Shown: positions 16,121 through 25,837 of the stretch, one piece after another
How positions within the stretch are numbered: position 1 is the stretch's first letter
Layout: every line of letters starts with the position of its first letter
Source: Serpentinicella alkaliphila
GTDB lineage: Bacteria; Bacillota; Clostridia; Peptostreptococcales; Natronincolaceae
Direction: 5' to 3'
Assembly (NCBI RefSeq): GCF_018141405.1
Contig: NZ_CP058648.1
Location: 1,441,001-1,505,000, forward strand
DNA length: 64,000 bases
Made by a program: the position numbers and the translations under genes
Notes under the pieces: generated by a model
Databases searched by the model: none
The model's input: the letters and a program-made list of their open reading frames with translations, nothing else
Told to the model about the DNA's origin: nothing

Positions 16121-17340
16121 TATTTTTTTATGTTGTGAACTATCTCTTTTTTGTAGGAGCGCATTTGCTCGACTCTTATATTTTTAAAATTAAGTGAAAC
16201 CCCAAATGTTTTTTCAATCTCCTTGTAAACTTCATTTTGCTTATTAAGTGAGTATATTACATTAGTGATAATTCTACAGATTGCATTTCTAAGGGATTCT
16301 TGTATTCTTTTAATAGAATACTGATTTTTAAGTTTCTTTTCTAGAATTCTAGCGAGTAATAATGCAACAAAACAAATAAGAAAATGTCCTTCTATCCTAT
16401 ACTCACATAGACAGGACGACCTTCTAGATCTGACTTTAAAACTTTAAAGGATTCTTCTATTTTCCAAAGACCTCTATACCGTTGAATTATTTCCCCATCA
16501 GACATCTCAATTTCGCTGGTAACAAGAGCATAATACCCATCTAAAGCTACATCTCTTTCATATTTATGGGCTTCAAACTCTAATAGTATTTTTTTATCTT
16601 CTACCTCACCTGTTACGGTATCTACTTCTATCTCTTTTAAATACTTCTTTACATCATAGCGATTGGAAGTTTTGTATTTTGAAGGATTTTCAAGATACTC
16701 TTTAAATTTTTCTTATAGTTTTTCTCTCTTGTGTTTTTCTCTAGCCTCATAATCAGCAGACCAGCAAGATACAATTTTTTCTTTGAGTATAATTTCTTCA
16801 CCTTTTTCGTTTTTAGTTTTTCTTTCTCTAAAGAAAGATTTAATTTTGAAGGTTTTAGTAGAGTTATAAACATAGCCTTCCTCTTTAAGAATTTCTTTTA
16901 TAAAGGTCTTAGATGCACCTCTTACCTTTTGTGAAACTATATAACCATCATTATTTTCAACAAGAAAGGCTAGGTTTTTACCACTATTGAGAGCTTTATC
17001 TGCTGTTAGAATTATTCTACCCAGATTATATCTATTTTTCATATTTTCTAAGGCGGGGATTAGCATAGTACTATCATGATTATTACCAGAAAAAAGGTCA
17101 TAGCCAACAGGAAGGCCTGCCCTGTCAATTGCAAGGCTCATTTGTACAATTGGAGTTGTTCTTTTTTCTTTAGAAACACCAACTTGTTTAAGATCATTTT
17201 CTAAGTCTGATTCAAAGTAATAATTAGTCACATCAAAGAAAACAAGTGAAGTATCTCTGCCATGTATCTGAGAAACCTGTTCATGAAGATGTAGTTGTAG
17301 GTCTTCTTTAATATCCTTTATTAGAGATAAAGAGCATTTT
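16120..17340 (-). pseudogene. Decayed IS1634-like (IS4 superfamily) transposase
   Basis: Read on the minus strand, the DDE domain begins abruptly near 17340 (QIHGRDTSLVFFDVTNYYF, with the first catalytic Asp) and continues through DLGRIILTADKALNSG (second Asp) to the Y-R-E-K-like segment QRYRGLWKIEESFKVLK. It carries an in-frame TAA at about 16711-16713 and a frameshift near 16410, after which the last 95 or so codons (IEGHFLICFVALLLARILE onward) lie in another frame. The N-terminal part is absent. It cannot make an active enzyme. The RelA/SpoT gene starts 90 bp beyond the truncated end, so this junction may mark an insertion or rearrangement border. Confidence 0.88.
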
Positions 17341-17431: not shown

Positions 17432-18715
17432 ATGGATATAACAACATTTATGAATACATATGTAGAAAATTACATTAGGAGAATTGATTATTATAAAAAA
17501 TTAGAAGGCTATGTCTACCAACTATGTCAAAGACAGATGGATGAAAACGGTATTCGTTGTATTGTTAGTAGTCGTGTAAAGCCCGTTAGTAGTTTGAGAG
17601 ATAAAATTCTTTATAGAAACAAGATAGTAGGTTTTAAAAATATTGATGATATTCACAATGATATAAGAGATAAAGTAGGAATAAGGATTGCATTATATTT
17701 CCCGCCTGATAGTGTTGAAGTAGAGAAGATAATGTATTCATTATTTGAAATCGTAGAGGAACCTGCACGATTTGAAAATAATACATTACAATATGATTCA
17801 AGATTTTCTGGGTATAGGGCCTGGCACTATAAAGTTAGATTGAAATCAAAAAAATTTTCAGATGTTGATTATGATGGCGAAGTAATCGAAATTCAAGTAG
17901 CCTCAATGTTAATGCATGCTTGGGCAGAAGTAGAGCATGATCTTGCATATAAAGAACCTGACGGTGGTATATCAGATTTAGAATATGCACTTTTATCTCA
18001 ATTAAATGGTCTAGTACATACAGGAGAGGTTATTCTAGAACAACTTAAAATAGCAATGGAAAAAAGAATTGAAGATAATAATAGAGAATTTTTAAATCAT
18101 TATGAATTGGCTTCCTTTATTTATAAAAATATACCACATGAAACTAAAGTAAATATTAGTCAACCTACATTAGGTAGAGTAGATATTTTATTTAGTTTAC
18201 TAAAAAGCATAAACAAACATCACCCTAAGGCTGTACTAAATTATTTGACTTCTATAGAAAATGATACTAGTTGTCATGCCATTAGCTATAGAATTATTGA
18301 AAAGATTCTTGCTGAAAACGAAAAAGCTTATTGTATATATTTTGATATAATATCACCTATAAGAGAGCCGTTAATTGGTTCATATAGTATAGATTTTGAG
18401 AAGAAATATAGAGATAATGAAAACCAAATTAATATTTTTCTATTAAAGTGGGTTGCATTAGAGGGATATATAAGAAATAATACAAAAGAAGAAAGTTTTG
18501 ATATTAGGAAAGTATCGAGTAAGCTACAGGATTTATTAGGTGAAGGTATAGGTCAACAAGTGCTTGAAGCATATAAAATGAGAAATAGAATTGTTCATGG
18601 AATTCAGGTTCCAGATAAACAGAAATTAAGAGAAGCAATAAATGGCATAGATAAAGTACTACAGGCAATAGATAATTTAGAGAAAAGTAATGATTATGAT
18701 AAAAAAATAGTTTAA
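17432..18715 (+). CDS. RelA/SpoT-type nucleotide synthetase fused to a HEPN-like C-terminal domain
   Basis: 427 residues. Residues about 40-185 form a RelA/SpoT synthetase domain: RDKVGIRI (Asp 80), SGYRAWHYK (Tyr 128) and EIQVASMLMHAWAEVEHDL (Glu 153, Gln 155, His 169) match conserved positions of enzymes that move pyrophosphate from ATP to GDP/GTP. There is no HD hydrolase domain, TGS or ACT. The C-terminal 90 residues are helical and end with RNRIVHG (Arg 384, His 389), the Rx4H signature of HEPN RNases and nucleotide-binding domains. The region between (about 200-340) is helical and unassigned. ATG at 17432 has AAGGGG nine bases upstream. It borders IS debris. It could be a stress alarmone enzyme, a toxic small alarmone synthetase or a phage-defence effector; the choice is inference. 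Confidence 0.82.
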   Translation: MDITTFMNTYVENYIRRIDYYKKLEGYVYQLCQRQMDENGIRCIVSSRVKPVSSLRDKILYRNKIVGFKNIDDIHNDIRDKVGIRIALYFPPDSVEVEKIMYSLFEIVEEPARFENNTLQYDSRFSGYRAWHYKVRLKSKKFSDVDYDGEVIEIQVASMLMHAWAEVEHDLAYKEPDGGISDLEYALLSQLNGLVHTGEVILEQLKIAMEKRIEDNNREFLNHYELASFIYKNIPHETKVNISQPTLGRVDILFSLLKSINKHHPKAVLNYLTSIENDTSCHAISYRIIEKILAENEKAYCIYFDIISPIREPLIGSYSIDFEKKYRDNENQINIFLLKWVALEGYIRNNTKEESFDIRKVSSKLQDLLGEGIGQQVLEAYKMRNRIVHGIQVPDKQKLREAINGIDKVLQAIDNLEKSNDYDKKIV

Positions 18716-18834: not shown

Positions 18835-19467
18835 ATGAGTTTATTTTTAGGCAAAATACATTATTGGTTATATAATAAAATAGTAAGTTATGAGCTAATT
18901 GAAAAAGAGATTATAAAATGGGCAAGTGAAAAAGGACTTAATTTAGAAGATTTAATAAGAAGTACTTATGCGGAATTTGGTGCACCACTTGATAATCGTC
19001 CCTTAGAGGATATAATTGATACTTCTAATATTCATGGCTGGCTACAAAATAAAATCAATAATGCAGAATTGAGACAGGCGGCATTAATTACGAATATTTT
19101 AAATAGGGATAAAAGTTTTAAAGAAGAACTGATGGAAGTTTTTAAAGAGCAGGGAATAGTAGCAGCAAAAAAATATAATGGACATTCACCAGATACACCT
19201 GAAACTATGTATAATTTTTTAAGTGATGTATTATTAGAAGGAATGCCATGTGACAGAGTATCTGATATTCTTGACAATAATGACCATGAATTTATATGGG
19301 TTACAACAATGTGTCTGCATAAACCCTACTGGGAAAAAGTGGGTGGAGATGTGAAAAACTTTTATGATTTAAGGGATGTATGGATTAAATATTTTGTTCA
19401 ATCTCTTAATCCTAAGTTTAATTATGAAAGAGCTGCAGATGGAGTGCAAAAAATTAAAAGAGTATAA
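18835..19467 (+). CDS. Protein of unknown function beside the RelA/SpoT-HEPN gene
   Basis: A 210-residue, mainly helical, soluble protein with a good ribosome site (AGGAGGGTGAAAT before ATG) and a terminator after it. I do not recognise the family. It has no signal peptide or membrane segment. The C-terminal half holds WVTTMCLHKPYWEKVGGDV and aromatic/charged residues that look conserved rather than random. It lies 119 bp after the synthetase in the same direction; a shared transcript or functional link is possible but not shown. Confidence 0.75.
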   Translation: MSLFLGKIHYWLYNKIVSYELIEKEIIKWASEKGLNLEDLIRSTYAEFGAPLDNRPLEDIIDTSNIHGWLQNKINNAELRQAALITNILNRDKSFKEELMEVFKEQGIVAAKKYNGHSPDTPETMYNFLSDVLLEGMPCDRVSDILDNNDHEFIWVTTMCLHKPYWEKVGGDVKNFYDLRDVWIKYFVQSLNPKFNYERAADGVQKIKRV

Positions 19468-22642: not shown

Positions 22643-23817
22643 TTAGACTTGTGGAACAAATGCAGTATTGTTTTTTAGGAGGTAGTAAATTACCCTAATT
22701 AACTTTTTACCGACATGGCATCTGGCAACATTGAAGTGTTTGCCTTCAGAACGCTTTTTGACCATATAATCACTAAAGACTTTATCGCGCATAGCAACAA
22801 GTCTAGATGCTTGCATAATAGCCCACCTAAGGTATGTAGAGCCTCTCTTAACCATTGGAGTTTTAGATGCATTGTAAGTCCCAGATTGGTAAGTAGAAGG
22901 ATCCATACCTGCAAATGCAAGAAGTTTAGCTGGGTTGGAGAAACGATCAATATGACCAATTTCAGCTAATATAATGGCAGCTAGAGTATATCCAATGCCA
23001 GGAATAGTAATGAGTGGGGTATTGAGTTCTTGTACGACTAATTTAATTTGATTATCTAATGCATCTATTTCTGTTTGTACAGATTGTATGAGGCGAATAG
23101 TTTGTTGTAATTCGAAGGCTGTAGAGCGATTGCTTGACCCAATAGATTTGATAGCAAGCTCTTTTAAAGCAATTGCTTTCTCTTTGCTATATTTACCTTT
23201 AGAGGCTGTTCTTATTAGGTTTGTCAACTTTGTCAGATTGCAGTTGTAAATACTATCGGGGTTGGTAATTCAATTAATAATGCATAGGAACTTTGGTGTA
23301 TAGACCAAAATAAGCTTGGCAATTCAGGAAAAATGATATCTATTAAGCGACTAACTGAAAGTTTAAGTCTAGAACGGTAACTAACCATTCTATGACGGTG
23401 TCTTGTTAGTGACTTTAGCTCCTGAATCTGATATGATACTGGTGAATAGGATTTAGATTCATCAGTAAAGAGCATAGTTGCAATGACCTTAGCGTCGGTC
23501 TTATCTGTTTTAGTTTTCCTAAGGGTTTGAGCCTTACGGAAAAGATTAGTAGCCAATGGATTTAGGATGGTGACCTGAAAGCCTTTGGAATACAGATAAT
23601 TTGTGATATTTGTGCTGTAATGACCTGTTGATTCAAGTCCTATTTTTACGTTGTTAATACTCTTGGAGCCAAGAGCAGAAAGGATAGAAGAATATAGGGT
23701 ATCAAAACCTTCCTTAGAATTAGAAATACGTAAAGAATTAGTATGAATAACACCATCAGAGTCTAAGATACAGCAATCGTGTTTAGCTTTGGCAACATCA
23801 ATGCCCACAAATAACAT
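22643..23817 (-). pseudogene. IS110-family transposase (DEDD recombinase) with one frameshift
   Basis: Read on the minus strand from ATG at 23817 (AAGGAG nine bases before it). The N-terminal RuvC-like DEDD domain shows FVGIDVAKAKHD, GLESTGHYS and KTDKTDAKVIA. The C-terminal domain shows PGIGYTLAAIILAEIG and KLLAFAGMDPSTYQSG with its conserved Ser region. The two halves are in different frames, switching near 23230-23260, so the protein is broken once while the rest is well kept. IS110 enzymes are guided by an element-encoded bridge RNA and leave no inverted repeats. A second frameshift was not seen. Confidence 0.92.
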
Positions 23818-23829
23818 AGTAATCAACTC

Positions 23830-24012
23830 CTTAAATATAGTACGCTATGTTTCCACAAACCCTATGTTAAATGTATCCTTGCTATATATAAAACGTCAAA
23901 GCGTTATCTAACTAATTAACAAATGAACATAGAGCTGTGGTTATAGCCTCAAAAGAAACAGTCGGCTGTATAGGGACAGCTGCCGTAGGTGAACAAACTA
24001 ATCCACAGCGCC
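23830..24012 (-). ncRNA. Candidate bridge RNA in the IS110 left non-coding end
   Basis: The approximately 180 non-coding bases before the minus-strand IS110 transposase can fold. GCTGTGG (complement of 24003-24009) pairs with CCACAGC (complement of 23934-23940). It encloses an inner hairpin around GCTGT/ACAGC (complement of 23965-23980) with unpaired loops. In the IS110 group a bridge RNA with target- and donor-binding loops is made from exactly this place. Loop-to-target pairing was not verified, and the borders are approximate. Confidence 0.45.
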
Positions 24013-24093
24013 TATAAAGATTATATAGAAAATAATCTAGAAAGGAAAATGTATAATGACTTCCCCTATGTTTTCATTATACAAGGTGATAAC

Positions 24094-24717
24094 ATGAAGT
24101 ATTATACAATTGGTCAATTCTCAAAATTGGTAGGGAAAAGTATCCAAACTTTAAGATTGTGGGATAAAGAAGGGAAATTAAAACCACATCATATAACAGA
24201 AGGTGGACACCGTTATTATTCTGAACAACAAATTAATCAAGTTTTACAAGTGCCATTTTTTAAGAAAACTAAAAAAATAATAGGTTATTGTAGAGTATCA
24301 AGTAATAAAGAAAAAGATGGCCTTGAGCGTCAAGTGGAGAATGTCAAAACTTATATGATTGCAAAAGGTTACTCTTTTGACATTATTACAGATATTGGAA
24401 GTGGGATAAACTACAATAAAAAAGGATTAAATCAGTTAATTGATATGATAACTAATTCAGAAGTTGAAAAGGTAGTAATTCTATACAAAGATAGATTGTT
24501 AAGATTTGGTTTTGAAATCATAGAAAATCTATGTAATAAGTATGGTACTACTATTGAAATTATAGACAATACAGAAAAAATAGAAGAACAGGAATTGGTT
24601 GAGGATTTAATTCAAATTGTTACGGTTTTTAGTTGTAGATTGCAAGGGAAAAGAGCAAATAAGGCAAAGAAAATGATTAAGGAGTTGCTCCAGAATGATA
24701 CTAGCGAAGAAAGTTAG
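24094..24717 (+). CDS. tnpA: IS607-family serine recombinase TnpA
   Basis: 207 residues. An N-terminal MerR-type helix-turn-helix (about 1-60; YYTIGQFSKLVGKSIQTLR) is followed by a resolvase catalytic domain (about 64-195). The nucleophilic Ser lies in GYCRVSSNKEKDGLERQ, with YKDRLLRFG containing conserved Arg residues. The start at 24094 matches the family N-terminus and has AAGGTGA nearby; the open frame extends further upstream without family similarity. It appears intact, so it could still move the element. Its last 23 bases overlap the tnpB start. Confidence 0.92.
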   Translation: MKYYTIGQFSKLVGKSIQTLRLWDKEGKLKPHHITEGGHRYYSEQQINQVLQVPFFKKTKKIIGYCRVSSNKEKDGLERQVENVKTYMIAKGYSFDIITDIGSGINYNKKGLNQLIDMITNSEVEKVVILYKDRLLRFGFEIIENLCNKYGTTIEIIDNTEKIEEQELVEDLIQIVTVFSCRLQGKRANKAKKMIKELLQNDTSEES

Positions 24718-25837
24718 AATTATTCCAAATGAAAAGCAGGAACAATTTATGGCAATCTGTTGGAACTGCAAGATTTATCTATAATTGGACACTTGCAAGA
24801 CAAGAAGAAAATTATAAAAATGGTGGTAAGTTTATAAAAGATGGATATTTGAGAAAAGAATTAACTATATTAAAGAAATCAGAACTTATTTGGCTGAGTG
24901 GATTATCTAATAATGTAGCAAACAGGCTGTAAAAGATGGTTGTAACGCTTATGAAAATTTCTTTAAAGGATTAGCTGATAAACCCAAATTTAAGAGTAGA
25001 AGAAAAAGAAAGCCTTCATTCTATAACGATACAGATAAACTAAAAGTTAAAGAAAATTTAGTACTAATTGAAAAAGTAGGTTGGATTAAAACAATAGAGC
25101 AAATACCTATGGAAATTAAATATACTAACCCAAGAATAAGTTTTGACGGGAAGTTTTGGTATATATCTGTAAGCATGGAAAAAGAAGAACCTATATCAGA
25201 AAATACAAATATATCAATAGGTGTAGATTTAGGTTTGAAAGATTTAGGGGTAGTTTCAAATATAGATAAGCCATTTAAAAACATTAATAAAACTAAAGAA
25301 GTCAAAAGACTAAAAAAGAAGTTAAAAAGAAAGCAGAAACAAGTTTCAAGAAAATATGAAGATGGAAAAATTCAAATAGGAAGGGAAGGTGAAAACCGTT
25401 ATAAATTTACTAAAACTAATAATATTAAAAAAGTAGAAAGAGAATTAAAACTTATTCAAAGAAGACTTTCAAATATACGTTTAAATCATATACATCAAAC
25501 AACTAATGCTATAGTGAAAACCAAGCCAAGCTGAATAGTTGTCGAGGATTTGAATGTAAAAGGCATGATGAAAAATAAACACTTATCAAAGGCTATTGGG
25601 GAACAATGTTTCCATAAATTTATTAGTTTTTAGAATATAAAAGTAAATTTAATGGTATTGAATTTGTAAAAGCAGATAGGTTTTATCCATCAAGCAGAAC
25701 TTGCTCATGTTGTGGCGAAATCAAGAAAGATTTAAAACTTAAAGATAGAGTTTTTATCTGATCATCATGTAACTATAAAATTGATTAGAGATAAAAATGC
25801 TTCAATAAATCTTTCAAGATACGAGAAATCAGCATAA
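24695..25837 (+). pseudogene. tnpB: TnpB RNA-guided nuclease, heavily degraded
   Basis: Coding similarity runs through all the family's parts but in changing frames. The start ILAKKVRIIPNEKQEQF (frame of 24695) shifts near 24750 to LWQSVGTARFIYNWTLARQ and shifts again after 24930. The RuvC-I motif is SIGVDLGLKDLGV (about 25220). A TGA at 25532-25534 precedes RuvC-II IVVEDLNVKGMMK. There is a further stop near 25632, then the zinc finger RTCSCCGEI and a RuvC-III-like RDKNASINL with more stops. The catalytic Asp and Glu codons survive, but the protein cannot be made. The TnpA upstream is intact, so the accessory nuclease decayed first. Confidence 0.92.

Follow-up and report, generated by a model that had tools for sequence, protein, structure and literature searches.

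A RelA/SpoT Synthetase–HEPN Fusion in Serpentinicella alkaliphila: a Probable One-Gene Effector, so far Undescribed, of Stress or Anti-Phage Responses

The Locus in Serpentinicella alkaliphila

The stretch of DNA analysed here (hereafter the window) covers 64,000 nucleotides of Serpentinicella alkaliphila (contig NZ_CP058648.1, positions 1,441,001 to 1,505,000 of the forward strand) and encodes a protein in which a RelA/SpoT synthetase is followed by a long helical C-terminus. The features discussed below are, in window coordinates:

16713..17231, minus strand: transposase fragment (IS remnant; Pfam DDE_Tnp_1, E = 1e-5), upstream neighbour, outside the system
17432..18715, plus strand: fusion gene, RelA/SpoT synthetase, helical linker and HEPN (427 residues; ORF translation)
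17432..17962, plus strand: N-terminal helices and RelA/SpoT synthetase domain, residues 1–177 (Pfam match at residues 47–175)
17975..18385, plus strand: helical linker or middle region, residues 182–318 (helices of the model; conserved in all subtypes up to about residue 250)
18404..18685, plus strand: very probable HEPN domain, residues ~325–418 (helices 330–351, 358–369, 373–388 and 396–418; domain model, VIA, Pfam and PDB profiles)
18581..18598, plus strand: R-N-R-I-V-H motif, R384 to H389 (R-x4-H signature of HEPN domains, closing the third helix; translation)
18835..19467, plus strand: downstream gene (at 18.8 kb), a 210-residue family without Pfam match, rejected as a partner

The reading frame is free of internal stops, according to both the ORF listing and the translation, and a strong ribosome-binding site (AAAGGGG) lies 5′ of the ATG at 17432; no promoter or terminator above chance was found on the strand of the gene. 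The AlphaFold model of the whole protein has a mean pLDDT of 87.

An earlier note on this DNA placed the gene beside IS debris, which the DDE_Tnp_1 fragment confirms, and IS remnants flank it on both sides. Further downstream, an IS110-type transposase split into two ORFs (22643–23826) and a MerR/resolvase plus TnpB-like pair of the IS607 type (23989–25534) can be recognised by eye. GC content falls to 26.5% in the 18–19 kb stretch, which contains the 3′ part of the fusion gene. Both the IS remnants and this dip would suit a passenger that came with IS elements and is now decaying without present function. Nevertheless, we consider such a history very unlikely for the S. alkaliphila gene, as its frame is intact and its ribosome-binding site good, and as all its catalytic residues and its R-x4-H motif have been retained despite the closest relative found being only 47% identical.

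The downstream gene, which the same note had considered as a possible partner, does not qualify as an antitoxin or type II partner: its family occurs in 72 of 148 relatives from the order, against 4 of 148 for the fusion (including one same-genus pair), and the two, which are distributed independently, lie far apart and unlinked in genomes that have both. The next gene after it encodes a GGDEF-EAL protein, and a lipoprotein gene and IS genes are also neighbours of the fusion. A defence role for the window copy would be assigned by analogy only, since no prophage or defence island is visible around it and no defence gene was seen adjoining it.

A Catalytically Complete Synthetase

The Pfam profile RelA_SpoT matches residues 47–175 with E = 5e-16 (59.4 bits, for a cut-off of 27), and no HD, TGS or ACT match accompanies it, so that no hydrolase or ribosome-binding part is seen, as first described from the sequence. 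In Foldseek searches, the top matches of the synthetase domain are SAS1/RelQ, RelP, Rel and CapRel, while matches of the protein in BFVD are confined to this domain. The residues for ATP, Mg, acceptor and G-loop have been defined in FaRel2 (R, K, S, K, D, G, R, Y, E, Q; PMC11782079), and a residue comparison recovers all FaRel2-type donor, metal and G-loop residues in the window protein. Among 55 homologs, R48, K50, K58, D80, G83, R85, Y128, E153 and Q155 are invariant, four of which (D80, Y128, E153 and Q155) had already been singled out in the earlier note; S54, present in the window protein, is the sole residue of the FaRel2 set to vary. Judged by residue content, residues 47–175 are thus a catalytically complete RelA/SpoT synthetase.

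Evidence for a HEPN Domain

The R384-N-R-I-V-H389 string reads in the translation exactly as reported. By itself, however, a bare Rx4H string is weak evidence, since the same protein holds another one (R218–H223); R[NDH]xxxH arises in 0.8% of cases when the C-terminus is shuffled. The assignment therefore draws on the fold, on profiles and on the family, and these together make the C-terminal domain very probably a HEPN.

The AlphaFold model of the domain (pLDDT 84.5) has four helices, with the motif ending the third. VIA alignments are led by the HEPN toxin 7ae8 (Z = 8.3) and the HEPN protein 2hsb (Z = 8.0), with six further HEPN entries among the top eleven; HEPN-MNT structures are the top fold matches, even though scores of this size (Z 7–8 for the HEPN matches) are modest for a helical bundle. 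Foldseek alone, queried with the C-terminal model, gave no significant HEPN match. At the profile level, a Pfam scan of the full-length protein yields a weak match to HEPN_RiboL-PSP at residues 275–415 (E = 0.074, below cut-off), and the C-terminal domain alone reaches E = 0.0012 (19.2 bits, short of the 28.4 cut-off) for the same family, no curated cut-off of a HEPN Pfam family being reached by the window C-terminus. HEPN families recur when 19 homologous C-terminal domains are compared to Pfam: RiboL-PSP (8), DUF4145 (5), HepT-like (4), Cthe_2314 (2) and Csm6 (2). A profile of these 19 domains, which were picked for having R-x4-H and thus conserve the motif by selection, retrieves the anti-phage protein ApeA first from the PDB (E = 9e-4); a HEPN toxin also appears (E = 0.014), with a few unrelated chains scoring similarly. 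The alignment with ApeA extends over the two halves of the domain in their proper order and sets the ‘RNLIVH’ of ApeA under the ‘RNrlVH’ of the family. Altogether, structure prediction, fold matches and profile links bear out the HEPN fold proposed from the sequence. As for the members devoid of His, their profile found no HEPN in the PDB but aligns to the R-x4-H profile at 99.6%, so that their HEPN identity depends on this link.

Outside RelA/SpoT proteins, the HEPN profile matches an FRG protein adjoining a SEFIR gene (E = 9.5e-12), as well as a HEPN-TIR protein. The former (L154:1283-3970) carries a HEPN of the fusion type C-terminal to its FRG domain and, together with the adjoining SEFIR/TIR gene, likely forms a two-gene defence locus. 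The latter (L155:1680-2900) joins in one chain a DUF4145/HEPN-like domain and, after it, a TIR domain of the Thoeris ThsB type.

A Family with a Constant Synthetase and a Changeable C-Terminus

Whereas a single-sequence scan of the genome contigs found no homolog, these contigs yielded 79 loci, and the viral contigs 22, when searched with alignment-based profiles; about 50 of the loci encode full-length homologs that include the HEPN part. The fusion is thus conserved. The scattered distribution of its R-x4-H members takes in at least seven groups of phylum rank, with finds in Bacillota, Actinomycetota, Pseudomonadota, a deltaproteobacterium, Latescibacterota, Riflebacteria and Bacteroidota.

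At the position of H389, the 55 HEPN-type sequences, a class that required R384, have His (24), Tyr (14), Phe (13) or Asn (2); in a wider alignment R384 is near-invariant, and members without His retain both R384 and N385. Tyr and Phe characterise two chromosomally fixed clades, mainly of Bacillota, whereas Asn is found in the closest relatives of the window protein. The window protein clusters with those of Anaerophilus, in which this residue is Asn; even close relatives thus differ at this position. On a tree inferred without the C-terminus, six changes between His and non-His are needed. The earlier expectation that homologs of a genuine HEPN effector would keep RxxxxH is therefore borne out in part only: 24 of 55 do, while two clades and the closest relatives of the window protein do not.

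The synthetase core carries yet other C-termini, i.e., TPRs in one clade, nothing in Lutispora and, in phage members, a domain without Pfam match. The TPR array replaces HEPN in ten loci (L056, L062, L063, L065, L071, L078, L086–L088 and L095) that form one clean Clostridia clade. A split HEPN gene was looked for 3′ of the short Lutispora forms and none was found. Short synthetase-core proteins of ~310–380 residues are also encoded on very large phage contigs of 67–463 kb (L127–L135). Where HEPN is present, it diverges much faster than the synthetase (mean identity of 24% versus 50%). With synthetase residues that are always kept and a C-terminal module that may be lost or replaced, the family probably has its constant effector in the synthetase and its changeable part in HEPN.

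These variations bear on the reverse arrangement, in which HEPN would be the toxin (an RNase) and the synthetase, with its nucleotidyltransferase-like fold, would control it in the manner of HEPN-MNT pairs, whose MNT modifies the HEPN. The retention of R-x4-H over so many phyla, its alignment with the motif of ApeA and the HEPN-MNT fold matches are in its favour. Yet the synthetase stays intact in the two clades and the closest relatives that lost His, and HEPN is absent or replaced in other members. Moreover, the Tyr of the HEPN-MNT motif Rx4HxY is missing: the window motif reads RNRIVHGI and no Tyr occupies that position in the family alignment, which led us to reject a Tyr modification of the HEPN-MNT kind. 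We thus regard a HEPN toxin under synthetase control as improbable.

Prophage Cargo and Chromosomally Fixed Clades

Examination of the neighbourhoods, suggested by the earlier note, did reveal phage-borne relatives, some of them close to defence genes. In one P2-like phage, an R-x4-H member (L120) sits exactly at the position of P2 fun(Z), directly before FI; the phage is 99–100% identical to P2 there, and the adjoining FI 99% identical. According to its database record, fun(Z) of P2 blocks T5 when cloned. Other R-x4-H members in P2-like phages lie after ogr (L119), after D (L117) or between tail genes (L116). Since the published defence hotspot of P2 is the one beside cos (PMC9122126), these positions are other cargo sites. 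Seven phage members with another, unrecognised C-terminal domain (L122–L126, L136 and L167) directly follow a P2-like integrase. All HEPN-type members in viral contigs are of the R-x4-H type (5/22 vs. 0/29, p = 0.011, relatedness not being corrected for). The L120 gene occurs in 3 of 5,426 E. coli genomes, inside a prophage remnant, so that near-identical copies of the fusion are known from three E. coli chromosomes and one P2-like phage. Besides the fusion gene, whose product is WP_052318513 (L148:16001-17275), the prophage remnant of E. coli T16R contains a resistance array bounded by IS26 (CTX-M-55, TEM-1, RmtB1 and FosA3; L148:2648-14570).

Defence-type neighbours of R-x4-H members comprise a two-gene PD-Lambda-5 system (A and B; near L038), validated in E. 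coli (PMC9519451), a GmrSD_N and RiboL-PSP HEPN pair matching NsnA and PD-T4-2_A (near L117) and a RES-toxin gene with a HEPN/RES N-terminal domain (near L077). The mad3/mad8 genes reported by PADLOC near L102 were judged to be generic ATPase matches and rejected as a system. No conserved partner gene or neighbour was found among R-x4-H members.

The two Tyr/Phe clades, in contrast, have fixed chromosomal neighbours, which are genes for a malic enzyme and an aminotransferase on the downstream side, or else a dipicolinate/aspartokinase-type cluster; such synteny is in keeping with domestication. This contrast has exceptions: in L040, L041, L044 and L049, a conserved neighbourhood goes together with a retained His. 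The housekeeping conservation envisaged as an objection to a toxin holds for some clades, whose synteny is stable and housekeeping-like; R-x4-H members are scattered and sometimes carried by prophages.

The protein might accordingly be read as a housekeeping small (p)ppGpp synthetase, of which the HEPN-like C-terminus would be a non-catalytic part, binding a ligand or mediating oligomerisation, that tunes the alarmone level in stress. The best structural matches (SAS1/RelQ and RelP), the fixed neighbours of the His-less clades and the retention of R384 and N385 in the absence of His all agree with this reading, while the patchy occurrence among relatives (4/148), the repeated prophage carriage and the defence-type neighbours of R-x4-H members do not. 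On balance, we hold it to be rather unlikely, though a real contender.

Proposed Mechanism

The scatter of relatives over at least seven phylum-level groups, along with prophage carriage at spots of anti-phage genes, makes it probable that the fusion protein is a so far undescribed effector, encoded by a single gene, of stress or anti-phage responses. More specifically, we tentatively favour, without deeming it established or even probable, a self-contained synthetase effector in which the synthetase is constant and active and HEPN is a changeable sensor or regulator. The swapped C-termini and the faster divergence of HEPN speak for such a variable sensor, as does the precedent of CapRel, the C-terminus of which is both antitoxin and phage sensor (PMC9712102). 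The effector reading also draws on the synthetase residues being kept even where HEPN has no His, the cargo positions in P2-like phages, the joining of this HEPN type to FRG and TIR domains elsewhere, the rarity of the fusion in the order (4/148) and the lack of a conserved partner gene among R-x4-H members. Gating direction, substrate, trigger and defence role are inferred as follows. The N-terminal domain would transfer pyrophosphate from ATP, the acceptor being either a nucleotide or the 3′ end of tRNA; the C-terminal HEPN would bind RNA or another ligand and thereby gate the synthetase; in R-x4-H members, that of the window included, HEPN may additionally cut RNA. Phage infection would serve as the trigger in prophage-borne members, and the activated protein would, like CapRel, bring growth or translation to a halt.

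Several observations sit uneasily with this sensor-gated effector: the window copy lies amid lipoprotein, IS and GGDEF-EAL genes, the stable synteny of two His-less clades fits housekeeping, Asn replaces His in the closest relatives, and a VIA Z of ~8 is modest for a helical bundle. A bolder version, i.e., a dual-action, single-chain anti-phage effector of P2-like prophages that would combine tRNA 3′-end pyrophosphorylation (or alarmone synthesis) with RNA cutting by HEPN, one reaction gating the other, appears unlikely to us.

If the preferred reading of a synthetase gated by a changeable HEPN is true, HEPN would be a second kind of C-terminal sensor for fused RelA/SpoT effectors, and two of the commonest defence folds would be united in one chain. 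Members with and without the catalytic His provide a natural series in which to study how a defence module turns into a housekeeping regulator. Owing to the near-identical copies in E. coli and a P2-like phage, the fusion can be tested at once in laboratory E. coli.

Comparison with Known Systems

The arrangement had been put forward as one not known to be described, and no description of a RelA/SpoT–HEPN fusion was found within the limited set of papers searched, to which belong the 2013 HEPN survey (PMC3710099) and the 2011 RSH survey (PMC3153485), neither of which mentions it.

Growth inhibition via pyrophosphorylation of tRNA-CCA or via (pp)pApp is the hallmark of toxSAS and CapRel. Like the fusion, CapRel is a single chain with an N-terminal RelA/SpoT-type synthetase and a varying C-terminal module, is prophage-borne and is retrieved by Foldseek, but its C-terminus is a pseudo-zinc-finger with a beta fold (PMC9712102), whereas that of the fusion is an all-helical predicted HEPN. 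SAS1/RelQ and RelP are the best sequence and fold matches of the synthetase, which retains their active-site residues; they are, however, proteins of ~200 residues without HEPN, and at the Arg position of the EIQ[VI]R motif the fusion family has Ala or Gly throughout. With the HEPNs of RiboL-PSP, DUF4145, ApeA and the HEPN-MNT toxins, the fusion shares the four-helix fold and the R-N-x3-H motif, but its HEPN falls below every curated Pfam cut-off, is joined to a RelA/SpoT synthetase and has lost His in about half of the members; in comparison with HEPN-MNT, the partner fold is RelA/SpoT instead of MNT. Finally, the PADLOC profile PDC-S33, a phage defence candidate, matches 53 of 53 full-length members over the synthetase, but the match is limited to profile positions 33–175 of 349 and leaves the HEPN part uncovered.
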